This document shows positions 3,006-55,769 of a stretch of DNA of 57,541 bases, in pieces. The position numbers were made by a program, and so were the translations under genes. The stretch comes from Methylobacter sp. (GTDB lineage: Bacteria; Pseudomonadota; Gammaproteobacteria; Methylococcales; Methylomonadaceae), in the NCBI GenBank assembly GCA_026399025.1, contig JAPLRU010000052.1:1-57541 (forward strand), written 5' to 3'. The notes below the pieces were generated by a model, which worked only from the letters and a program-made list of their open reading frames with translations, was not told where the DNA came from and ran no database searches. The first letter of the stretch is position 1. Each line of letters opens with the position of its first letter.

Positions 3006-4295
3006 ATGTGTATGAAAAATAATATTTTATCCATTTTTTTGTTGAGTGTTGCAAGTTGTGGCACTGTATTGGCTTATGACAGTAAAGACGACGCCAAAGT
3101 GGAAAAAGAACGCCAAAGTTCCGAATATACGCATCCCGGCATACACGCCGGATCTTTTGTTGTTTCACCCAAGATGGATGTCGGTAACCAGTATGATTCT
3201 AATATTTATAAACAAGATAAAAAAGTATATACCCCGGTAGATAGCTATGTTGCGCATTTTAAGCCCGGTTTAAATGTACGCTCGGATTGGCGTCGACATG
3301 CGCTTAATTTGATGTTCGATAGCGATCTAACGCAGTATGCCAGTCAAGGTGATTTAAATAATTATGAAGACATGTTTACTCGTCTGGACGGAAGATTGGA
3401 CGTCGTTCGCGATAGCCATCTGGATTTAGGGTTTTCCTATAGCAGCATACATGAAGACCGAGGCTCTCCCGACCAGATTGCCGGTAAAGGTCCGACTTTC
3501 TACGATACTAAAAGCATGGATGCTTTTTATACTCATAAGCTTAACCGGATGTCGGTTAAGGCCGGCTTGGAATCCACTCGCTATGACTATCAAGATGTAT
3601 TCACTTCGCTAAATTCAGTGTTGGCTATGAGCACTCGTAACCGTTGGGAGTATATGCCTTCGGTTCGTTTAGGTTATGAAATCCAGCCGGAATATGAAGC
3701 CTATCTAAGAGTAGTGTATAAAGAGGCCGATTATGATAATTTTGTTCAGTCGAGTGGCGCCGGCGTGGGCTATAACCGTAACTCGTCCGGCTACAATGTG
3801 TTAGGAGGGTTAGCGTTTGAAATGACCGAATTGGTGACCGGCGATATGTCTGTCGGTTACTTGCAGCGCGATTACGTCGATGCACGCTTACCTAGCATTT
3901 CCGGGGTTAACGGTTTCGTCAAATTAAAATGGAGACCGACGCAACTTACCACTGTTACCGGTAAATTGAGTCATGATATTGGTGAAACGACGCAGGCGGG
4001 TGTTGCAGGCGTTTTAGCAACCGGTGTCAGTATGGGGGTTGATCACGAATTAATGCGTAATATTCTTCTTAGTGCGGGTGGTACTTTTGGCAATAATGAT
4101 TATCAAGGTTTTGTCGCCCCTAACTTGGTAAATCGTAATGACAAGGTGTATGGGGGTAATGTGAGTGCTAAATACATGTTGAACAGGAATTTATCGGCGG
4201 CTCTGTTATATACTTATCAAAGTCGGGATGTTAACTATCTGTTTAGTGACTATGAAGTGCATCAGGTAATGCTTAATTTAAGAGGTGAGTTTTAA
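3006..4295 (+). CDS. Outer-membrane beta-barrel protein of EPS operon (BBP2/EpsL-like)
   Basis: A 429-aa protein with a signal peptide ending near Ala23 (TVLAYDSK follows); ATG 3012 is an alternative start two codons in. The rest shows alternating hydrophobic and polar strands rich in Tyr, Asn and Gly, with many RYDYQ- and LSYTYQ-like strands, and ends in a strand closing with Phe (LNLRGEF), as outer-membrane barrels do. Early residues NQYDSNIYKQDK match the start of the putative beta-barrel porin 2 family (EpsL-like) common in exopolysaccharide operons of methylotrophs and beta/gammaproteobacteria. It probably helps polysaccharide cross or attach to the outer membrane. It is followed after 83 bases by the Wza-type gene. 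Confidence 0.75.
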   Translation: MCMKNNILSIFLLSVASCGTVLAYDSKDDAKVEKERQSSEYTHPGIHAGSFVVSPKMDVGNQYDSNIYKQDKKVYTPVDSYVAHFKPGLNVRSDWRRHALNLMFDSDLTQYASQGDLNNYEDMFTRLDGRLDVVRDSHLDLGFSYSSIHEDRGSPDQIAGKGPTFYDTKSMDAFYTHKLNRMSVKAGLESTRYDYQDVFTSLNSVLAMSTRNRWEYMPSVRLGYEIQPEYEAYLRVVYKEADYDNFVQSSGAGVGYNRNSSGYNVLGGLAFEMTELVTGDMSVGYLQRDYVDARLPSISGVNGFVKLKWRPTQLTTVTGKLSHDIGETTQAGVAGVLATGVSMGVDHELMRNILLSAGGTFGNNDYQGFVAPNLVNRNDKVYGGNVSAKYMLNRNLSAALLYTYQSRDVNYLFSDYEVHQVMLNLRGEF

Positions 4296-4378
4296 GTTTG
4301 ACGCGGTTAAGTTTGAGTGTACGCGCTAGGGTGAGGCGTATTACTGATTTGAAAATAATGTATTTTTTGTGAGAAAAG

Positions 4379-4960
4379 ATGAGCCAGTATCGTATTAGAT
4401 TTTTTCCACGACTATTGTTGTGTAGTGTGTTTTTTTGCACAAACTTATGTGCTGAAGAAAATAATAAGCAACAACAAAATTTGAGTTTAACTTCCATAAA
4501 TACCGAGTATCGGTTAGGTTCCGGTGACTTATTGAAAATTACCGTGTTCAACCAGGAAGACCTATCGGGCGAGTACACAATTAATGGCGCCGGTCAGGTT
4601 TCCTTGCCGTTAATTGGCGATGTCAATACTAAAGATTTAACGGTAAAGCAAGTAGAGCAGGGCATTGCCGATAAATTAAAGCCGGATTATTTGCTTAATC
4701 CTCGTGTTAGTGTGCAAGTGTTAAACTACCGGCCTTTTTATATTTTAGGCGAAGTCAAGGAGCCTAAGTCTTATCCTTATGTCGACGGTATGACCTATCT
4801 AAATGCTGTAGCCATAGCCGGCGGTTATACTTATCGAGCTAAAGAAGACCATGTGGTTGTTATTCGTATGAACGATCCGCAAAAGCAGGAGATTATCCTC
4901 AAAATGGATGATAAAGTTTTGCCGGGTGATGTAATTCACGTTAAAGAGCGCTTTTTTTAG
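4379..4960 (+). CDS. Wza-type polysaccharide export protein (Poly_export/SLBB)
   Basis: A 193-aa periplasmic or outer-membrane protein with a signal peptide (start MSQYRIRFFPRLLL, cleavage near LCAEE). The polysaccharide-export domain begins at YRLGSGDLLKITVFNQEDLSG and includes GAGQVSLPLIGDV and the SLBB-type segment PFYILGEVKEPKSYPY. It ends at VLPGDVIHVKERFF, so it has only one SLBB-like domain and lacks the C-terminal amphipathic helix of E. coli Wza. This matches the short EpsE-type exporters. No lipobox cysteine is obvious, although two cysteines lie in the signal region. It should form the outer-membrane channel of the export machine with the downstream Wzc-type kinase. Confidence 0.85.
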   Translation: MSQYRIRFFPRLLLCSVFFCTNLCAEENNKQQQNLSLTSINTEYRLGSGDLLKITVFNQEDLSGEYTINGAGQVSLPLIGDVNTKDLTVKQVEQGIADKLKPDYLLNPRVSVQVLNYRPFYILGEVKEPKSYPYVDGMTYLNAVAIAGGYTYRAKEDHVVVIRMNDPQKQEIILKMDDKVLPGDVIHVKERFF

Positions 4961-5088
4961 CTGTTGCTTATGCTTAGTACGTGTATCAGTTACACGGCTT
5001 TCGACTAAAAACTTAACGGGATAAGATTCTTGATAAAACAATAGCTTGTTATATTTAATCTTCTAAGTAATCCGTGGCGTTTCATTTG

Positions 5089-5113
5089 GCGGCAGCCTTC
5101 CGACTGCCGCTTT
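5089..5113 (+). terminator. GC-rich hairpin between export protein and Wzc-type gene
   Basis: GCGGCAG (5089-5095) pairs with CTGCCGC (5104-5110) over an 8-base loop, followed by TTT. It sits in the 202-base gap between the Wza-type and Wzc-type genes. It could attenuate transcription, but the T-run is short. Another small hairpin, CGTGTA/TACACG, lies near 4980-4996. Confidence 0.4.
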
Positions 5114-5162
5114 CAGGTTTTAGAATACCCTTCATTCCCTTTAAAATACTATCGAGAAAATA

Positions 5163-7412
5163 GTGCAAGATTCAAAAGACCAATCCCTCATATCCGGCGA
5201 ATTTCTACAAAATGACAAAACAGAAATTTCACTTATTAACTTTTTTCATACGCTGTGGCTGAGAAAGCGCGTATTCTTGAGCGTGATATTTTCTCTCACT
5301 ATTTTCGCGATATTGATTATTTATCAGTTAGTGCCTCGTTATACTGCGACAGCGCAGTTGTTGATCGGTATCAATGCGACCAAAGTCGTTGATATTGAAG
5401 AGGTTATGACCGGCAACTTTAAAGGCGATGCGGCGGTTATTGGTGAAATGGAAGTGATTAAGTCGCGCGAGTTGGCGCACAAAATAATTGATCAATTACA
5501 TTTAGAGCAATACCCTGAATTTAACCCAAAACCTCAAAAACCAGGCCTTTTAGCGCAGTTTAGCTTTAAAAACTTGTTGCCTGAATCTTGGAAAGAAGCT
5601 ATGGGAATGATAAAAATCGATAGCCGTACTGCCGAAGAAAAGGAAGAAGCGCGCTTAACAAGATTGACTAATATTTTTCTCAGTAAACTGAAAGTTTCAC
5701 AAGTCAAGCGCTCTCAAGTCATTAATGTGGCGTTTGAATCCCAGGATCCTAAATTAGCGGCAAAGATCGCTAATGAGGTTGCGGATAAATATATTGTCGG
5801 TCAATTACAAGCCAAGTTTGACGCCACTAAAAAAGCGACCGACTGGTTAAACGATCAGCTTGTCGAGTTAAAGCAAAAGGTAGAATCTTCGGAACGTGCC
5901 GTGGAGCAATACCGTAAAACCCACGAATTGCTGGAAGTAAGTAAGGAGGTGGGACTCTCGCAACAACAAATGTCGGAAGTGAACAGTCAATTGATTATTG
6001 CCCGCGCCCAACGAGCGGAAGCTGAGGCTAAATATCAGCAAGTAGAAGCGATTGCCAAAAGCGGGCGTGACATCGATAGCGTTGCCGAAGTTTTAAATTC
6101 ATCCTTAATATCGAGTTTACGCCAACAAGAATCGGAAGTGCAGCGTAAATATTCGGAAATGTTAGTGGAATTCGGCCAACGGCATCCTCGTATGATTCAA
6201 ATGCAGGCTGAACTGGAAGACATACAGGCAAAAGTGCGCTCCGAAGTTAAAAAAGTCGCCGCCAGCTTACGTAACAGTATGGACGTTGCACGAGCGCGTG
6301 AAGGCTCATTGTCCAGCAGTCTAAGACAGATGGAGTCCAAAACCAGCGGCAGCAATCAGGCTGAAGTGCAATTACATGCTTTAGAACGGGAAGCGACCGC
6401 CAATAAAGCCTTATTCGAGACTTTTTTAGGCCGGTTTAAAGAGACGGCTTCGACGCAGGGTATCGCACAAGCGGATGCACGGGTGATTTCATTTGCGGAG
6501 ATTCCTCTGGGGGCCTCGTATCCGAAGAGAAACTTGTTGCTGATGAGCAGCGTGGTTGGCGCATTATTATTTGGAGTTTTTCTGGTATTCATACTTGAAA
6601 TGCTCAATCCTGGGGTGCGTTCACCGGAGCAAATTCAGGATTTATTTAATATGTCCACGTTGGGGATCGTGCCTAAGATAGTGGATGCCAATGCGCTGCC
6701 GCATGAATATTTGTTGACTAAACCGCAATCGTCTTTAGCGGAAGCGGTAAACACCTTACGTATTTCACTCAGCTTACTTAACCCGGATGCTGAAGTGAAG
6801 TCATTGTTAGTGACATCCTCGGTCCCCGGCGAGGGTAAAAGTACCTTGGCTGTTTTAATAGCAAGGCACTCGGCTTGTGCCGGGCAGCGAGTGGTTTTGG
6901 TCGATACCGATTTGCGTCGTCCGACCATTGAAAAAATGTTTAAATTCAAAGACCGAAAACTGGGCTTAACGGATTTATTAATGCAGCACGATTTGTCAAT
7001 AAATGATGTTTTAGTTGATGATCCGGAAACCGGTATGAAAATTCTAACCGGAGGCAAATCGGCATTTATTAATCCTGTCGATTTATTTGCTTCTCAACGA
7101 ATGAAATCGATCGTCAACGATTTACGAGAACGGTTTGATTTGGTTATTTTGGATTCGGCTCCCATCATGGCGGTACCGGATACCCGAATATTAGCCGGAT
7201 TAGTGGATAAAACCATTTTTGTCTTAAATTGGGATTCAACACCGAAAAAAGTGGTGCATGGCGCGTTGCATTTATTAAATAAAGACGGTCATTCCAATAT
7301 TGCCGGAGTTGTCTTGCAGAAAGTTAATTTGCAGCAATATGGCCGTTACGGCTATGGCGATTCCGGATATTATTACCATTACGGCCGTTATAATCAGTAT
7401 TACAACAGTTAA
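5163..7412 (+). CDS. Polysaccharide co-polymerase / tyrosine autokinase (Wzc-type)
   Basis: A 749-aa inner-membrane bacterial tyrosine kinase that controls length and export of exopolysaccharide. It starts at a GTG. The N-terminal Wzz domain has a membrane segment at about 37-57 and a second at about 460-480, flanking a long periplasmic coiled-coil region with the GNVR-like EVQLHALEREATANK. The cytoplasmic kinase carries Walker A at 553-561 (SVPGEGKST), Walker A' at 577-583 (VVLVDTD) and Walker B near LVILDSAP. The C-terminus is a tyrosine cluster (about 10 tyrosines in the last 25 residues), the autophosphorylation tail typical of Wzc/EpsB. It is followed almost directly by the VpsP-like gene, with no low-molecular-weight tyrosine phosphatase nearby. 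Confidence 0.92.
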   Translation: MQDSKDQSLISGEFLQNDKTEISLINFFHTLWLRKRVFLSVIFSLTIFAILIIYQLVPRYTATAQLLIGINATKVVDIEEVMTGNFKGDAAVIGEMEVIKSRELAHKIIDQLHLEQYPEFNPKPQKPGLLAQFSFKNLLPESWKEAMGMIKIDSRTAEEKEEARLTRLTNIFLSKLKVSQVKRSQVINVAFESQDPKLAAKIANEVADKYIVGQLQAKFDATKKATDWLNDQLVELKQKVESSERAVEQYRKTHELLEVSKEVGLSQQQMSEVNSQLIIARAQRAEAEAKYQQVEAIAKSGRDIDSVAEVLNSSLISSLRQQESEVQRKYSEMLVEFGQRHPRMIQMQAELEDIQAKVRSEVKKVAASLRNSMDVARAREGSLSSSLRQMESKTSGSNQAEVQLHALEREATANKALFETFLGRFKETASTQGIAQADARVISFAEIPLGASYPKRNLLLMSSVVGALLFGVFLVFILEMLNPGVRSPEQIQDLFNMSTLGIVPKIVDANALPHEYLLTKPQSSLAEAVNTLRISLSLLNPDAEVKSLLVTSSVPGEGKSTLAVLIARHSACAGQRVVLVDTDLRRPTIEKMFKFKDRKLGLTDLLMQHDLSINDVLVDDPETGMKILTGGKSAFINPVDLFASQRMKSIVNDLRERFDLVILDSAPIMAVPDTRILAGLVDKTIFVLNWDSTPKKVVHGALHLLNKDGHSNIAGVVLQKVNLQQYGRYGYGDSGYYYHYGRYNQYYNS

Positions 7413-8863: not shown

Positions 8864-9487
8864 ATATTCAGGTTCTGCGATTCAATTGTTTTTAGTCCAT
8901 TAAAAACATACCGATTTAAAGACATCAACCTCGTAAATAAAACATTGTCGTACCATCGTCGTTTTTAACCGGTAAAACGTTTGCATAATGGGGCAGGGCG
9001 TATGTTTTAAAGTCTGGAAAATATCACTCTCAGGCTATTTATATACGCTTGCGCTGTCCCGCTTATGCTATCGCTAAACCGACCAAACGTTCAGTACTGT
9101 TAAAAAGCATAAACAATGTTCCGGTGGCATTATTTACACGCCCGCTCCGCATGTGCAGTAAGTGACACAAGAAGCGATAGTGGCCTTTGTCGGTTCTGAA
9201 TACGATTTTCCGGATAGTCAAAATTTGTCAGGTGGTTCAAGACTTTTTGGTTAGGGCATTCGTTTACTCCGCTCCTTTATATCTGCAACTCATGGCTGAT
9301 GTTTTTTATTGCTTAGCAATGGAATTTTGCACGAAATGATAAAACTTGCTAATCAGCAATTTGAGCTTATTCCCGCGTTAAAAATGAATTATCCTTGGTA
9401 TTCAGTTAAAATAGTCGGGTTAAAAAACCTCCGCTTCGATTTAGCGGTGTGTCATTTTTATTTAATGTATCTTTCCGAGGTCGTTGT
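8864..9487. other. 624-base gap before the multicopper oxidase
   Basis: No gene I can defend. Frames are short; one stretch from 9162 (VTQEAIVAFVGSEYDF and on to a stop after 30 residues) looks protein-like but has no start and no recognised match, so it could be the remnant of a decayed gene. A GTTTTTA/TAAAAAC inverted repeat lies just after the phosphatase (near 8888-8906). The ORF starting at 9309 overlaps the true start of the oxidase in another frame. Confidence 0.45.
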
Positions 9488-11221
9488 ATGCATAAAAATC
9501 TTCTTACCTTCATGTGCGGTGCCACCTTGCTCCTCACACATTCTTGGAGTCAAGCGGCCAGTGATTTACCTCCTACGGCCAAGGTGGATATGGGGCCGGT
9601 AGAAGAAGTATGTTCCGATTTCACTAACCCGGAATGGCGCAAAGAACAAGTCATTGACGGTGTAAAAATACAGGCTTCACGACTCTGTAATCCCGATAAT
9701 CCCGCCGACATCGCGGCCTTTGTCAAGGGTACCAACGGTATTTCCATGTCGACGTTGATGGAGACTCAGCTCGCGGCCGATGCGATTACAATGTCCGACG
9801 ATGTCGACGGCGACGGCGATCCCGACAAAATTATTATCAAACTGGAAGTGGCCGAACTCAACGGTCATTCACCGGACATGAAGGATCCCACCACTACTTT
9901 TGATATAGCGCCGGGCATCCAACCGACTTTCTGGGTTTATGCGCCAAAAACCCGTGATATGTCGACGCTGAGCATCTACGAGCCGATCGCCAATCCGTTG
10001 TTGCGCGCACCGTCTCCGGTGATTCGTGTCGAACAGGATGACGTTATTTGGATCGTCCTGGAAAACACTCATTATTTACCGCATTCCATCCATTTACACG
10101 GCATCGATCATCCGTTCATGGATCATAGCGGTGGCGGTAACGATGGGGTTGGGCAAACCAGCAACATGGATACGATGCCGGGCCAAAGCAAAACTTATGT
10201 GATCAAACCGCGCCAACCGGGCACCATGTATTACCATTGCCATGTTCAGCCGCACACTCATATTCCAATGGGCTTGCAGGGTATTTTTATCGTTGAGGAA
10301 AATCGTCCCAATAACTGGGTGCAAACGCTTAATGTCGGCGCCGGTCAAGTGCGTCATCCTTCGGTAGCGGTGCTTGAAAAATATGCTCGCGAATACGACT
10401 TGCATTATCAATCGGCGGATAAAGAGCTGCATGAGCTGGTGGCCCGCTCGGCCAATGATCCAAGGCTGATCGCCAAGCATATGAATATGGAATACGACAC
10501 CACCGAGGCCACCGACGATTATTTCATGCTCAATGGTCGCTCTTTCCCTTATACCTTAAGGGAGTCGTTGATTGAGATGAAACAGGATGAAAAAGTTAAA
10601 TTGCGGGTTCTGAACGGCCATACCGAATCTATGGCGGTGCATATCCACGGTCACAAGCCGACTATTACGCATTACGACGGCGTCGATAACGGTCCCAGCT
10701 CGTACATCACTCGTGATGTACACGGCATGGTGCCCGCTCAGCGTATTGACCTGGAATTAAGCGGCGTCGATGACGGCTTGCACAGCTTCGGGCAAGGCAT
10801 CTGGATGTTCCATGACCATGTCGAAAAATCGTTTACTACCAACGGCATTGGCGAAGGCGGCGACATCAGTTTGGTCGTCTATGACGGCTTTATTGATGAA
10901 AAAGGCATTCCCAAAGCACACGGTATGAGCTTGGCGCCTTATTTCACCAAAGGCCTTTGGAAAGCCAATTATCCAATCTGGCAAGATTACGATGAATGGC
11001 GCAGCTTGGGCTTGCCCGACCTGACGGCAGCTTATCAACCGTCTAAAGTTGCGGTGCAAACCGTACAGGCGCAATGGGCGCCACCGGCTCCGGAAGCGGC
11101 GCAAGAAGGTTCTGCGTTCGGCAAGTTGGTGTTCGGTTTAGTCTTGGGATTATTCAGTTATGTGCTGATTATTAAACGGCAGATCATTTTGGACCGCGTT
11201 CTTAAATTGCTTAATAAATAA
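9488..11221 (+). CDS. Multicopper oxidase with C-terminal membrane anchor
   Basis: I take ATG 9488, which follows a GAGG at 9477-9480 and leads into a signal peptide (MHKNLLTFMCGATLLLTHSW, cleavage near SQA-AS); the product is 577 aa. Residues near 100-110 carry an Asp-rich DDVDGDGDPD loop like a calcium-binding EF-hand or dockerin loop. Cupredoxin copper motifs follow: H199-SIHLHG, HCHVQPHTHIPMG at 250, HIHGHKP near 385 and FHDH at 442-444. The Cys-containing type 1 copper motif lies in the first cupredoxin half, unlike classical three-domain laccases where it is near the C-terminus. A transmembrane helix (LVFGLVLGLFSYVLII) ends the protein. It should oxidise a periplasmic substrate or metal ion; the substrate cannot be told. 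Confidence 0.85.
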   Translation: MHKNLLTFMCGATLLLTHSWSQAASDLPPTAKVDMGPVEEVCSDFTNPEWRKEQVIDGVKIQASRLCNPDNPADIAAFVKGTNGISMSTLMETQLAADAITMSDDVDGDGDPDKIIIKLEVAELNGHSPDMKDPTTTFDIAPGIQPTFWVYAPKTRDMSTLSIYEPIANPLLRAPSPVIRVEQDDVIWIVLENTHYLPHSIHLHGIDHPFMDHSGGGNDGVGQTSNMDTMPGQSKTYVIKPRQPGTMYYHCHVQPHTHIPMGLQGIFIVEENRPNNWVQTLNVGAGQVRHPSVAVLEKYAREYDLHYQSADKELHELVARSANDPRLIAKHMNMEYDTTEATDDYFMLNGRSFPYTLRESLIEMKQDEKVKLRVLNGHTESMAVHIHGHKPTITHYDGVDNGPSSYITRDVHGMVPAQRIDLELSGVDDGLHSFGQGIWMFHDHVEKSFTTNGIGEGGDISLVVYDGFIDEKGIPKAHGMSLAPYFTKGLWKANYPIWQDYDEWRSLGLPDLTAAYQPSKVAVQTVQAQWAPPAPEAAQEGSAFGKLVFGLVLGLFSYVLIIKRQIILDRVLKLLNK

Positions 11222-45545: not shown

Positions 45546-47735
45546 ATGATAAAAAAACTTGCAGGCTTAACGTTACTGTCGCTGGCAGCGATGCCTTATT
45601 CGACTCAGGCGGCAATCAATTCGCCTATCGCTTTTGTGACTCAAGTCCCCATCCCTCAAGATTTTTGCAGTATGAACGCCACTTTTTGCAACCATCAAGC
45701 GAGCATGGATGCGGCGGGGCGGGGCGGCGATTTATGGATACGCTATCCTGACGGAACTCTTAAAAACCTGACTTTGGCGGCGGGCTTCGGGCAAACCGGT
45801 CTGCAAGGCGATCAAGCTATCCAAGTGCGCGATCCCGCCGTGCATTGGAATGGCAAAAAGATGATTTTCAGTATGACGGTGGGAGCTCCCAGCCATTACC
45901 AAGTGAAAAGATTTAATTGGCAGCTTTATGAAATTACCGGCTTGGGTAAAAACGAAACGCCGGTTATTACCAAAGTCGCTAATCAACCTGCTACTTACAA
46001 TAATGTCAGCCCCACTTACGGCACCGACGGGCGCATCATTTTTGTTTCCGACCGGCCGCGCGGCGGTCTTAGCCAGTTATATCCGCAGCTGGACGAATAC
46101 GAAGAAGCCGCGTCCAATACCGGTTTATGGAGCTTGGCGCCGAGCACCGGGAGTTTAATCATGCTGACTCACGCGCCTTCAGGTGATTTCAATCCTTTCG
46201 TGGACAGTTTCGGCCGCGTTATTTTTACCCGCTGGGATCATTTGCAACAAGATCAGCAAGCCGCCGGCGACCGTAACAAAACCGATTCCTACGGCACCTT
46301 TAATTACAGCTCCGAAGCGGCTAACGCAAAAATATTAAAAAGCCGCGCCGAAGTTTTTCCCGAGCCTTTAGGTTTCGACACCTTGTCTTTAGCGGGCACT
46401 AACTTATCGGGGCATAGTTTTAATCATTTTTTTCCGTGGCAAGTCCACGAAGACGGCACTGAGTTGGAGACGGTCAATCATATCGGACGGCATGAATTGG
46501 GCGGTTCCTATGTCAATCCGGCATTCACCGACGATCCGGTTTTAACCTACCTGACCAACGATTCCAATCCCAATAAAATCAGCAATTTTTTTCAAATCAA
46601 GCAGGCCCCGACCGATCCTAATACTTATATCGGGATTAACGCGCCTGAATTCGGCACTCATGCGTCCGGACAAATTGTGCGTTTGAATAATGTTGCGCCT
46701 ACGCACAACGCCGATCAAATGACTATCGATTATGTAACCGATAAATCGACATCGTCTCTCAGTCTTGACGATGCGACGCCGCCCGCCGAAAACTCAGGAC
46801 ACTACCGCGATCCGGTGATTCTGTCCGACGGCACTTTGCTTGCCGCGCATACCTTTGAAACCCGCCAGGACAGAAACGAAGGCACAACCTCGCCGGATTA
46901 CGCAAACAGCTATCCAAAATCCCGTTATAGCTTTCGCTTACGCACACTGAAAAAACAGGCAAACGGCGTGTGGACAGCCGATCAGCCTTTAACCAAGGGC
47001 ATTTACAAAGATATCAGCTATTACAGCCCGGACAGCCTGACCCACTACAGCAGCGCCTTGTGGGAATTGCAGCCGGTGGAAGTTAAAGCGCGACCTAAAC
47101 CGGCTAAACTCCTACCTGTGCTCAGCGCGCCGGAAGCCCAGGTGTTACAGGAAGAAGGCGTCGATGAAACCGGTTTGCGGCAGTATCTCAAAAGCAAAAA
47201 TATGGCGTTAATCGTGATGCGCAATGTGACCCAGCGCGACCACAGCGACAAACAACAACCGTTCAATTTAGCGGTTGCCGGATCTGCCACGCAAGCTGTG
47301 ACCGACAAAGGCAAAATTTACGAAATCGCCCATTTTCAAGCGTTTCAAGCCGATCAAATTCGCGGCCTAACCGGTTGTTGTTCAACAACACCGCTACCGG
47401 GTCGGCGCGTCTTGGCGCAAGAGCTGCACAGCATAACCGCGAATCCCGCGCCGGCGCTAGGCGATCCCAAAGGCAGCGTTAAAATTGCCGACGACGGTTC
47501 GGTTGCCATGCTTTTACCTACCCGTCGGGCGCTTACTTGGCAACTGACCGATACGCAAGGCAATTTTGTGGTTAGAGAACGTAACTGGCTGTCGCTGCAA
47601 CCGGGAGAAATCCGCTCTTGTCCCGCTTGCCACGGTATTAATAGCGGCGATCAACTGGGGCACGCAACTCCGGTCAACAAACCCGAAGCATTACGTCAGT
47701 TACTTCAGTATTTAAAAGGCAACGGTAGTTTGTAG
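45546..47735 (+). CDS. HzsA-related periplasmic protein with c-type heme motif
   Basis: A 729-aa exported protein that I place in the HzsA-related family (relatives of the alpha subunit of anammox hydrazine synthase). A signal peptide (MIKKLAGLTLLSLAAMPYST, cleavage near QAA) is followed by IAFVTQVPIPQDFC and a Cys41/Cys48-His50 cluster. A beta-propeller with blades such as DGRIIFVSDRPRGG, GRVIFTRWDHLQQDQQ, DPVLTYLTND and RDPVILSDGTLLAAHT follows. The C-terminal domain holds one perfect heme-binding CPACH at 692-696, which needs periplasmic cytochrome c maturation. HzsA has a second heme; only one CXXCH is found here. Substrate is unknown; hydrazine synthesis should not be assumed. Confidence 0.75.
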   Translation: MIKKLAGLTLLSLAAMPYSTQAAINSPIAFVTQVPIPQDFCSMNATFCNHQASMDAAGRGGDLWIRYPDGTLKNLTLAAGFGQTGLQGDQAIQVRDPAVHWNGKKMIFSMTVGAPSHYQVKRFNWQLYEITGLGKNETPVITKVANQPATYNNVSPTYGTDGRIIFVSDRPRGGLSQLYPQLDEYEEAASNTGLWSLAPSTGSLIMLTHAPSGDFNPFVDSFGRVIFTRWDHLQQDQQAAGDRNKTDSYGTFNYSSEAANAKILKSRAEVFPEPLGFDTLSLAGTNLSGHSFNHFFPWQVHEDGTELETVNHIGRHELGGSYVNPAFTDDPVLTYLTNDSNPNKISNFFQIKQAPTDPNTYIGINAPEFGTHASGQIVRLNNVAPTHNADQMTIDYVTDKSTSSLSLDDATPPAENSGHYRDPVILSDGTLLAAHTFETRQDRNEGTTSPDYANSYPKSRYSFRLRTLKKQANGVWTADQPLTKGIYKDISYYSPDSLTHYSSALWELQPVEVKARPKPAKLLPVLSAPEAQVLQEEGVDETGLRQYLKSKNMALIVMRNVTQRDHSDKQQPFNLAVAGSATQAVTDKGKIYEIAHFQAFQADQIRGLTGCCSTTPLPGRRVLAQELHSITANPAPALGDPKGSVKIADDGSVAMLLPTRRALTWQLTDTQGNFVVRERNWLSLQPGEIRSCPACHGINSGDQLGHATPVNKPEALRQLLQYLKGNGSL

Positions 47736-47745
47736 AGGCTTAAAA

Positions 47746-47775
47746 CACGGGTGCAAAGCCATTTTTGCACTCGTG
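47746..47775 (+). terminator. Hairpin after the HzsA-related gene
   Basis: CACGGGTGCAAA (47746-47757) pairs with TTTGCACTCGTG (47764-47775) with one wobble, 10 bases after the stop codon. The T content after it is modest, but stem length and position suggest a terminator. Confidence 0.65.
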
Positions 47776-52298: not shown

Positions 52299-55200
52299 AT
52301 GAACAACAAAAAAAAAATGCCTGCAAGCAGAAAAAGAGTTGTGGTAAATAGCCCTGCATTAGCCGCCCCTGTCGCATATAAAAAATCAAACAACACTTTT
52401 ATCGAATGGAACATCGAACGTGGCTGCGACTCCGGCTTTTTTGGCAATATCGATACCTTGGGACCGGACGGCGCTTCAGGATGGATCATAGACGCGGCTA
52501 AATCGTCCGAATCGATAAAGATAACCCTCTATATCAACAATGTTGCCGTCGCTTCCGGCGTCGCCGATACCTACCGGCCGGACATCAGCAAAATCATTCA
52601 GCTTCCTGCACATTGCGGCTTTCACATCAGCTGGAATAAAAAGCGGGTTATGGGTGCGATTAGCGACTTGAAAGCCAATCAACTGTGTCCCATCGCAATT
52701 TGTCCGGAAGGCGAAACGCTATCTCTAGTTGCGAGAATGCCCACATTGGTTGCCGAGCTGCAAAAATGGCTGAACATCAGATCAATTAACGGCCATCTCG
52801 ACCAGGTCGATGCCAACCTTATCGCGACCGGTTGGGCAATCAATTCCGCTCAGAAGGGTTCGGCGCGAGTTGAGATTCTGCTTGATGGGGTGGTTGTGGC
52901 TGAACAAGAGGCAAACTCGCCTCGACCGGACTTCGCTTTATTAAAACCTGACCACGTTATGTCCGGTTTCAAGATTCAAATTCCCCGCAAGGCGCTTACC
53001 CGGTTGATCGGTCAGGTGGGGGCTCGGGTTGACGGCTATCTATTGCTTGGGACGCCGATCAAAATCGATTTTTCCAATCAAATCGCTATTGCTCTTTCAA
53101 TGACCGGTCATAGCGAGTTACGTGTTGAATTAAGCGGATGGCTCGGTGAAGCTCTCGAAGGGGAGTTGCAGGTAGATGGCGCAAAAGCAACGGCTTTGCA
53201 GTTAACGCTTAACCCTGCCACGAAAAAGCTTGAGAGCTGCTGGGCTTTACCTGAATATTTGGTTGACGGACGGCCTCATCTTTATGTCTTTGTCATTCGA
53301 CAGGGGAATGCTGTAGTACGGAGCGACGCTTCGGTTTTTTCTTATCCCCACTACTCATATTGTATCGACCAGGCAAATTTAAACGCCATTTCAGGCTGGG
53401 CCTTTCGTTATGACCAGGCCGTACCGCTAAGGCTTAATTTGGTCAAGGCAGGCAAAAGGGTGGCGCAAACGCTTGCTAACAGGGCTCGAACTGACGTCGC
53501 CGAATTATTTCCTTCCGCATCAGCACATTCGGGATTCGAGTTTATTTTGCCTTATTCGCGAGATGAAAATAGTGCGGAATTTAAAATAACCGATACTGAA
53601 ACAGGCATAACGATTGCCGAGGTTACCGTTGCCAACCTCTATGAAACCCTCAGCGCACTGGCGAATAGCTTGGCGACCTCGCAAGCGGTCGCATCCCCTG
53701 CCTTAGTGCAGGCAGTGATGTCGGAAGTCGTTATGCACTCCGGCAGAGAATCGGTCTTTTCCGTGCAAACCTTCCCGCGGATAAGGCCCACTGTTCGCCC
53801 GGCCGAGGTTACTGTGATTATTCCGGTTTACGGCGGCAGCACCGAAACCATCGAGTGCATTGAAAGCGTGTATGCCGCCCGCAATAAAACACCTGTCCGC
53901 ATCGTTATTATCAATGACTGCACATCCGATCCGCTGATCGAAAATTATCTTGCACTATTAGAATCGCGCAATCTTGAAAATGGGCTGGTTATCCACAGAA
54001 CAAGCAACGGCGGATTTTCCCAATCGGTAAACATAGGCATGATTGTGGCCGGTGACTGCGATGTCATCTTGCTCAATGCCGACACCGTCGTCCAGTCTCA
54101 CTGGGTTGATCGTCTGCTTGCAGCAGCCGATAGCGATGCGCGCATAGCGACGGTCACGCCCTTGTCGAATAACGCGGAAATCTGCTCATTGCCCTACCTA
54201 AACACATCGTCACCGGTTCCCACCGATAGGCTGGCCGTTGAAATCGACCGGGCTGCGGCGTCGGAAAACGCCGGAAAAACAATCGACATTCCCGTGGCGG
54301 TCGGCTTTTGCATGTATATCCGGCGAGATTGCCTTGATGAAATCGGACTTTTCGACGCCGCCACCTGGGTGCGGGGCTACGGCGAAGAAGTTGATTTCTG
54401 TCTCAAAGCCGCCGCCCGCGGCTGGCGCAATGTAATGACCGGAGACACTTTCGTCGTTCACCACGGTGGCATTTCGTTCCAGGCGGACAAACTTGAACGT
54501 ATAAAAGAAAGCGCAAAAAAAATTACCGAGCTCTACCCGTTTTATGATGCTCTGATCCAACGCTTCCGCAGGGCCGATCCCGCCGCGCCTCTTAGACGCG
54601 TGATCAATCTCGAACTCATTGACAAAGCGCTGCCGCAACAACGCATTCTGCATATTACTCATAGTTTTGCGGGAGGCACCGAGCAGTATATAAAGGATAG
54701 GATCGCCCTGGATAGCGCCTCCGGCTACACCTCGATAGTGCTGCGTTTCACCGAGACCGGCGCCGCCGAGTTAGATATTGACCTCACAAAAACCCGGCTG
54801 GTAGGCTTTTTTAACGATGCGCATAAGGAAAATTACGCTCCGGATGAAGTTGACGCCATCAAGAAATCTATCGTTAAACTGGGTTTCGAACGCTTGCATA
54901 TTCAGGCGCCCTTTGGCATTCCTCTTGAATTATTGGATTGGCTTAGCACGACCTACCCATTCAATGTAACGATTCACGACTATGCCTGGATTTGCCCCAG
55001 AGTCACATTGACCACTGCGGGAGGGCGCTATTGCGGCGAACCGGCTGTGGAGCGCTGCAATAGCTGTATCGACTCCCATGGTCCTCATGCCGGATTGAAG
55101 CACTTTGTGGACGCTTGTCAAGGCGACATCGGCCAATACAGAACGCTGTTAGGCGGTATCATTCTACGCGCCGAAACAACCTTCGCCGCCGCCGAGGATG

Positions 55201-55769
55201 TGGTGCGGCGAATGGAACGGCATGGCATGGAAGGTAACTACCTGATGCTTCCGCACCCGGCACTCAAGGGGTCGGTTTTTGCAAAATCCAGAAATTTGGC
55301 ACATAAACCCTTTAACGATGAAGTCGTTAGGGTGGCGTTGTGGGGCGGGATTAGCGATATTAAAGGTTTTCATCTGCTCATTGACTGCGCCGAAAATGCG
55401 CTCAGGAAAAAACTGCCGCTTCAGTTTATTGTTTTTGGCTACACCATGAACGATGAATTATGCCGCACTCTTTCTAACATCGAAGTCACCGGAAAATATG
55501 ATAATGAAGCATTGGACGAAGTCGTGCAACGATACAGGCCCCACCTGAGTTTTTTTCCGAACCAGTGGCCGGAAACCTTTAGCTACACGCTGAGTCATAG
55601 TTTGAGATTAGGCATTTGGCCGATTGTTTCCGATATCGGCGCGCCGGCCGAACGGGTCAGAAGTCAGAAGTTCGGCAAGGTTTTTTGTTTATCCTCCAGT
55701 GCTGAAGCTATTTGCCACATGTTGCTTGATGAGGCATTCGGTTATTCTAAAAACAGAATTGAACACTAA
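52299..55769 (+). CDS. Large multidomain glycosyltransferase (GT2 plus GT4-like)
   Basis: A 1156-aa cytoplasmic protein. Residues 1-500 hold three or more copies of a beta-rich domain marked by a GWxxD/GWAxx start: GASGWIIDAAKSSES, TGWAINSAQKGSA, SGWAFRYDQAVP, each followed by R-(T/P)-D-x and SGFxxxIP-like ends. From about 505 a GT-A domain of family GT2 follows (VTVIIPVYGGSTETIECIES, LLNADTVVQ with the Asp of the DXD-type site, YGEEVDFCLKAAARGW). From about 775 to the end comes a GT-B-like domain with HSFAGGTEQYIKDR, a Cys cluster near 890-925 (WICPRV, YCGEP, CNSC) and FFPNQWPETFSYTLS. It may build two linkages of a surface glycan. It stands alone, far from the EPS operon. Confidence 0.82.
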   Translation: MNNKKKMPASRKRVVVNSPALAAPVAYKKSNNTFIEWNIERGCDSGFFGNIDTLGPDGASGWIIDAAKSSESIKITLYINNVAVASGVADTYRPDISKIIQLPAHCGFHISWNKKRVMGAISDLKANQLCPIAICPEGETLSLVARMPTLVAELQKWLNIRSINGHLDQVDANLIATGWAINSAQKGSARVEILLDGVVVAEQEANSPRPDFALLKPDHVMSGFKIQIPRKALTRLIGQVGARVDGYLLLGTPIKIDFSNQIAIALSMTGHSELRVELSGWLGEALEGELQVDGAKATALQLTLNPATKKLESCWALPEYLVDGRPHLYVFVIRQGNAVVRSDASVFSYPHYSYCIDQANLNAISGWAFRYDQAVPLRLNLVKAGKRVAQTLANRARTDVAELFPSASAHSGFEFILPYSRDENSAEFKITDTETGITIAEVTVANLYETLSALANSLATSQAVASPALVQAVMSEVVMHSGRESVFSVQTFPRIRPTVRPAEVTVIIPVYGGSTETIECIESVYAARNKTPVRIVIINDCTSDPLIENYLALLESRNLENGLVIHRTSNGGFSQSVNIGMIVAGDCDVILLNADTVVQSHWVDRLLAAADSDARIATVTPLSNNAEICSLPYLNTSSPVPTDRLAVEIDRAAASENAGKTIDIPVAVGFCMYIRRDCLDEIGLFDAATWVRGYGEEVDFCLKAAARGWRNVMTGDTFVVHHGGISFQADKLERIKESAKKITELYPFYDALIQRFRRADPAAPLRRVINLELIDKALPQQRILHITHSFAGGTEQYIKDRIALDSASGYTSIVLRFTETGAAELDIDLTKTRLVGFFNDAHKENYAPDEVDAIKKSIVKLGFERLHIQAPFGIPLELLDWLSTTYPFNVTIHDYAWICPRVTLTTAGGRYCGEPAVERCNSCIDSHGPHAGLKHFVDACQGDIGQYRTLLGGIILRAETTFAAAEDVVRRMERHGMEGNYLMLPHPALKGSVFAKSRNLAHKPFNDEVVRVALWGGISDIKGFHLLIDCAENALRKKLPLQFIVFGYTMNDELCRTLSNIEVTGKYDNEALDEVVQRYRPHLSFFPNQWPETFSYTLSHSLRLGIWPIVSDIGAPAERVRSQKFGKVFCLSSSAEAICHMLLDEAFGYSKNRIEH

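Follow-up and report, generated by a model that had tools for sequence, protein, structure and literature searches.

A probably exported single-heme propeller protein at the locus

The 57,541-nucleotide stretch of Methylobacter sp. DNA analysed here, referred to as the window, carries on its forward strand an open reading frame at 45546..47735 that begins with ATG and encodes a protein of 729 aa, hereafter P0001. The reading frame, a domain profile, a structural model and a fold match together indicate an exported monoheme protein of the HZS_alpha-propeller type. When the gene was compared with its Methylovulum miyakonense orthologue, identities of 84, 88 and 48% were obtained at the three codon positions, and 295 of the 437 differing codons were synonymous; judged by these codon-position identities and the excess of synonymous differences, P0001 is a real gene.

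The protein begins with a likely signal peptide (residues 1-23, 45546..45614), recognised by eye from the hydrophobic N-terminus MIKKLAGLTLLSLAAMPYSTQAA, which agrees with the export signal originally predicted. The N-termini of relatives are, also by eye, mostly hydrophobic and of the export type, and some are lipobox-like. P0001 contains exactly one CxxCH, the c-heme attachment motif C692-P-A-C-H696 (47619..47633), so that the frame and the position of its single motif are exactly those of the original prediction. The motif forms the end of a match to the HZS_alpha middle domain (residues 643-696, 47472..47633), and a loop motif discussed below, HIGRH, is encoded by codons 312-316 (46479..46493). 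As the chain ends 33 residues beyond His696, it has no room for the domain that carries the second heme of the hydrazine synthase alpha subunit (HzsA), a heme that had indeed been predicted to be missing.

Directly 3' of the stop codon, a consensus scan found a terminator-like hairpin of 13 pairs with a 4-base loop (47746..47775); the scan returned 8 sites, where 4.5 were expected from shuffles, and this stem is the longest of the 8. The nearest upstream open reading frame of at least 100 aa ends 366 bases 5' of the P0001 start. With a hairpin behind the stop codon and a gap of this size in front, P0001 looks like a single-gene unit.

Pfam annotation of eight other open reading frames of the window identified, among others, a zinc-binding dehydrogenase, Uma2, FTCD_C, Dak2, Dak1 and PPK2. 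The Uma2 family gene lies directly upstream of P0001 (44586-45179). Downstream, between 48230 and 50523, there are an FTCD_C cyclodeaminase-type gene, a Dak2 DhaL-type gene and a converging Dak1 DhaK-type gene, the last two overlapping by 18 bases. Elsewhere in the window, a 590-aa product has a multicopper oxidase domain and, by eye, a hydrophobic C-terminal segment (9449-11221); another, of 1156 aa, has a glycosyltransferase family 2 domain, along with group 1 matches that are weaker and fall below threshold (52299-55769).

Relationship to the hydrazine synthase alpha subunit

The Pfam profile HZS_alpha (PF18582) matched P0001 with 41.9 bits against a curated cut-off of 26.6 (E 1.5e-10), over profile positions 44-97 of 98. 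The PD40 propeller repeat was matched once, at 16.6 bits, below its cut-off of 20.9. Three alignments were used to look further. The first (66 rows) comprised P0001, two further relatives (L044 and L046) and 63 of the 71 loci that remained from the collection of 80 described below, near-duplicates being omitted; the second (86 rows) combined 62 of these 66 rows with 24 of 30 longer HZS_alpha proteins from the class of the window (L010-L039); the third contained 28 of those 30. In sequence searches of the PDB, neither P0001 alone nor the 66-row subfamily profile retrieved HzsA, which was found only with profiles that included the longer relatives. The 86-row profile reached HzsA (5c2v_A) at E 3.3e-12 in collinear pieces, with the CxxCH of P0001 on the first CxxCH of HzsA, and the profile of the 28 longer relatives reached it at E 2e-19. 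The 66-row subfamily and the 28 longer relatives were linked by profile-profile comparison (Prob 99.9, E 2.6e-32, 543 columns), the longer proteins being homologous to P0001 over most of its length and having the same first heme motif.

A structural model of P0001 built from the 86-row alignment had a pLDDT of 93.8 and a pTM of 0.93, and replaced an earlier model from 8 close relatives with a pLDDT of 40.7. Among 662 Foldseek matches to this model, two HzsA chains of 5c2v came first and second (E 1.8e-19 and 1.3e-18, TM 0.51 and 0.50), ahead by about twelve orders of magnitude in E-value of the TolB structures that came next (E about 1e-7). The beta-propeller of the original prediction is thus upheld by the model and by fold matches to both HzsA and TolB, and its HzsA kinship by profile and structure alike. 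Neither of the outcomes that the original prediction named as refutations, a missing HzsA-type profile match or a better score for a TolB-like family, was observed. A TolB-like propeller unrelated to HzsA, with a CxxCH acquired by chance, might be suggested by the TolB matches and by the PDB sequence searches in which P0001 and the 66-row profile reached no HzsA, but it is very improbable given the lead of HzsA, the PF18582 score and the persistence of the motif, which arose in 19 of 20000 shuffles of P0001's own residues and was seen in 72 of 74 relatives; L113 and L125 are interrupted by a contig end ahead of it, and no intact close relative has lost it. On profile and model evidence, P0001 is a member of the HZS_alpha superfamily with an HzsA-like fold. 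With a moderate TM-score (0.51) and a sequence identity of 14% to HzsA, residue equivalences in the propeller, those of the loop containing His312, Arg315 and His316 included, carry an uncertainty of about two residues.

HzsA of Candidatus Kuenenia stuttgartiensis (PDB 5C2V), the best solved-structure match, shares with P0001 the propeller and the HZS_alpha middle domain, and the CxxCH of P0001 aligns with that of heme alpha-I; the histidine of the motif corresponds to HzsA His587 (chain and published numbering are offset by 27, by our own derivation). Passages of PMC12607021 and PMC12758564 describe the alpha-I iron as bound by Tyr591 and a zinc by His587; the latter source further describes the zinc as shared by His587 and Cys303, and Cys303 as not conserved in all anammox bacteria. 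Unlike HzsA, P0001 has one CxxCH only and no alpha-II cytochrome domain with its second, bis-His heme. It also differs in the absence of an equivalent of Tyr591: no tyrosine occurs within 10 residues past the CxxCH in any of the 66 aligned rows (0/66). The region aligned with Cys303 holds GRH, with no cysteine at or near that position in a register that is unsure by about 2 residues. Nor was a gene for HzsB or HzsC (beta/gamma) found among the adjacent genes, in the Pfam scan of eight window ORFs.

The NCBI HzsA equivalog model NF052339 gave P0001 13.2 bits against a cut-off of 800. Because of this score, the missing Tyr591 equivalent, the missing alpha-II domain and the lack of an adjacent HzsB or HzsC gene, the sequence identifies P0001 as something other than a hydrazine synthase subunit, and it very probably makes no hydrazine. 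The idea of a true alpha subunit, or of an anammox-type activity concealed in a methanotroph, could appeal to the common fold and alpha-I heme motif, but in view of the same evidence and of a genome with a single PF18582 protein it is scarcely credible.

Comparable losses have been reported. According to passages of PMC12758564, HzsA homologues of clades I-III have lost the equivalents of Tyr591 and Cys303, clades II and III have lost alpha-II, one predicted homologue structure has a canonical c-heme pocket, and the three clades were suggested to be unable to make hydrazine. As described there, clades II and III resemble P0001 in keeping the heme alpha-I site while missing the alpha-II site and roughly the last 100 residues, and also in a gap at Ser590/Tyr591 and a non-conserved Cys303. 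This likeness is one of features, not of tree placement, and the clades of that study, in the parts available, were chosen for an adjoining fused beta-gamma homologue with an FG-GAP gene nearby, neither of which was recognised beside P0001 or its relatives. The longer HZS_alpha proteins (open frames of 706-1070 aa) differ from P0001 in that 29 of the 30 have one or two further CxxCH motifs after the first. Ten of them (L010-L016 and L018-L020), with three CxxCH motifs and the sequence CNGCHSPRR at the first heme, form a distinct-looking subgroup.

Within the 66-row alignment, His312, Gly314, Arg315, Arg564, Asp565, Gln571, Tyr592 and the CxxCH are invariant (66/66), and position 316 is His in 60 rows and Gln in 6. 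There are 81 invariant columns, the majority of which lie a long way along the sequence from the heme motif. Through the longer relatives, the His312-His316 loop aligns with the Cys303 loop of HzsA, in two alignments that differ by two residues; as one zinc in HzsA is bound by both Cys303 and His587, the loop should lie near the heme of P0001. The column of His312 holds Gly in all 24 longer rows, so a distal histidine would be a trait of the short subfamily at most, and the histidine of the CxxCH is the sole histidine invariant across both subgroups.

A cluster of Cys41, Cys48 and His50 had originally been put forward as a possible atypical heme site. This candidate for a second heme or metal site was rejected: both cysteines occur in 12 of the 66 rows, namely the window and relatives from the same order, and such confinement does not fit a conserved heme site. 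Cys48 occurs alone in one Bacteroidota row, and position 50 is His in 56 of the 66 rows, so that its conservation does not depend on the cysteines. A clade-specific disulfide is the likelier role for the pair.

Distribution and gene neighbourhoods

Of 369 genomes from the class of the window (its own included), 57 had a PF18582 match, against 0 of 14 control genomes. When 84,980 species genomes were scanned with two subfamily peptide patterns, 178 short-form relatives were retrieved; 80 of them were retained, with 48-80% identity over the best segment and mostly near full length. Six of these 80 loci (L071, L077, L085, L099, L103, L107) lacked the core ORF, an overlapping frame having been picked in at least five of them, and L078, L113 and L125 were omitted from tree and alignments as truncated. 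Occurrence of the HZS_alpha domain outside the anammox bacteria is common, and the original view of this location as unusual is not supported.

A methanotroph host, as originally predicted, is supported: the genome has two matches to PF02461 (pMMO/AMO), and the nearest orthologues of P0001 are from Methylovulum. The P0001 type itself was found in 7 of 151 genomes of relatives (the window's own included), none of the other carriers being from the same genus. In a quick tree of 72 rows, representing 10 named phyla, P0001 and 13 Methylococcaceae rows fell into one starred group; the remaining hosts belong to Chloroflexota, Verrucomicrobiota, Acidobacteriota and further phyla, and two relatives are from Nitrospira. 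The tree required 14 changes of phylum label where 9 would be the minimum, a hint, short of proof, of some transfer between phyla; the labels are those of the submitters and many of the genomes are MAG bins, so that some placements may reflect contamination. No match to the gene was found among 72,556 plasmid records or in PHROGs.

Several relatives (L067, L075, L124, L070, L074) are extended at the C-terminus, judged by eye, by FG-GAP-like repeats, by a tail resembling those of type IX sorting or by surface tails rich in Thr and Pro, hinting at a cell-surface location in some hosts. In L083, two further ORFs (4271-6751) match the adjoining full-length relative in pieces, as if a second copy had been broken up, and a piece in L128 (9254-9823) is similar to that broken copy.

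The flanks of the 80 relatives were compared over up to 7 kb, often less at contig ends, and neighbour families present in at least 3 loci were examined. No consistent partner gene was found in these flanks, which together with the adjacent genes of P0001 bears out the stand-alone character originally proposed. The largest neighbour family, of a kinase type, was present at 9 loci, five of them near-identical Chloroflexota; the next families were groups confined to close kin and an artefact from overlapping frames of the gene itself. The common kinds of neighbour, assigned by eye, were ABC-ATPase-like (4 loci) and gyrase-B-like (3 loci). No nitrogen gene family was recognised among these recurring neighbours, and the eight window ORFs read with Pfam held no pointer to nitrogen or C1 chemistry.

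Any CxxCH was found in 8 of 711 neighbouring ORFs, two of the 8 being the pieces of further relatives in L083 and L128. Another, from a Nitrospira bin (L066, 12175-13560), has two CxxCH motifs, lies about 3 kb downstream of the relative there and shows weak similarity (26%, E 6e-4) to a CCP/MauG-type protein encoded in the genome of the window; a partner is therefore possible in some hosts. In the genome of the window, CCP_MauG gave 6 matches in 5 open frames, all on contigs other than that of P0001, and the two longest frames read by eye as diheme peroxidase-type. The hydroxylamine oxidoreductase profile PF13447 had no match in this genome and was equally silent in the control genomes, so it is uninformative. 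Of 23 genomes of the genus (own included), 21 had a match to the flanking cyclodeaminase and 19 matched the dehydrogenase with an identity of at least 81%. In G019, an assembly of 3 contigs, however, these two genes are separated by about 860 kb, and for this reason no clean empty site for P0001 is shown in the genus.

A proposed role and its alternatives

Taken together, these observations favour a reading of P0001 (probability about 0.68) as a stand-alone c-type redox protein located outside the cytoplasm, in which an ordinary His-ligated heme is turned towards a loop of the propeller, and which is not a hydrazine synthase and most likely a small-molecule redox enzyme. After export it would be a periplasmic or surface protein, built from a beta-propeller and an HzsA-type middle domain, with one heme at the alpha-I position and a short C-terminal helix in place of the alpha-II domain. 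Its heme is most likely of the ordinary c type, ligated on the proximal side by His696, and the opposite face of the heme would be directed toward the propeller loop with the invariant His312 and Arg315 and the near-invariant His316. Catalysis would most likely be a redox reaction on a small molecule, in which the single heme would pass electrons on to a soluble cytochrome or cycle them as in a peroxidase. A similar idea appears in part of PMC10732223, where low-similarity hzs-like genes were guessed to belong to a wider family of enzymes acting on other substrates.

An enzyme for a small molecule is more likely than a plain electron carrier, although the latter fits the observations as well. 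In that alternative, a possible one that we hold to be distinctly less probable, the heme would be low-spin with bis-His or otherwise six-coordinate ligation, and P0001 would be a non-catalytic electron-transfer protein whose propeller docks to another exported redox protein or to the cell surface. The presence of one heme only, the invariant and near-invariant histidines in the loop proposed to face it, the lack of substrate-specific neighbours and the resemblance, by eye, of some C-terminal extensions to surface or sorting domains are all consistent with a carrier. The 81 invariant columns, most of them remote from the heme motif, instead suggest a specific pocket over a carrier surface, and the flanks of the relatives offer no consistent partner gene.

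The methanotroph host, the kinship to HzsA and the two relatives from Nitrospira might direct attention to nitrogen compounds such as hydroxylamine or nitric oxide, perhaps formed as by-products of methane monooxygenase, as what the single heme handles. This is unlikely: few genomes of relatives (7 of 151) carry the P0001 type, the other hosts are scattered over Chloroflexota, Verrucomicrobiota, Acidobacteriota and further phyla, and the recurring neighbours include no recognised nitrogen gene family. Similarly doubtful is a wider scheme in which the short subfamily would be a widespread group of exported one-heme propeller enzymes, partly spread between phyla, whose heme, covered by the His/Arg loop, would turn over a reactive small molecule (peroxide, NO or hydroxylamine), and in which hydrazine synthase alpha would be a specialised offshoot of such non-anammox one-gene enzymes.

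An HzsA homologue may be mistaken for evidence of anammox, and an HZS_alpha match in a methanotroph denotes a common uncharacterised one-heme protein rather than anammox. In passages of PMC12758564, searches for the HZS subunits gave 300 to 1,000 hits by sequence among GTDB species and over 600 by structure; that work, as far as those passages go, deals mainly with homologues accompanied by a beta-gamma gene at the same locus, and its conclusion concerns distant alpha homologues from a small number of obligate anaerobes. With the domain in 57 of 369 class genomes and a partnerless short form in 10 phyla, the range of proteins that could have given rise to hydrazine synthase appears broader. 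The novelty is modest, since HzsA homologues without the key HzsA residues have already been published (PMC12758564, in the parts available). What is added here is the distribution of partnerless short forms, little dwelt on in those parts; no description of the stand-alone short subfamily was recognised in the portions of the open-licence literature consulted. The function can be tested in a named strain, Methylovulum miyakonense HT12, which has two copies of the gene (L049 and L061) on one contig.
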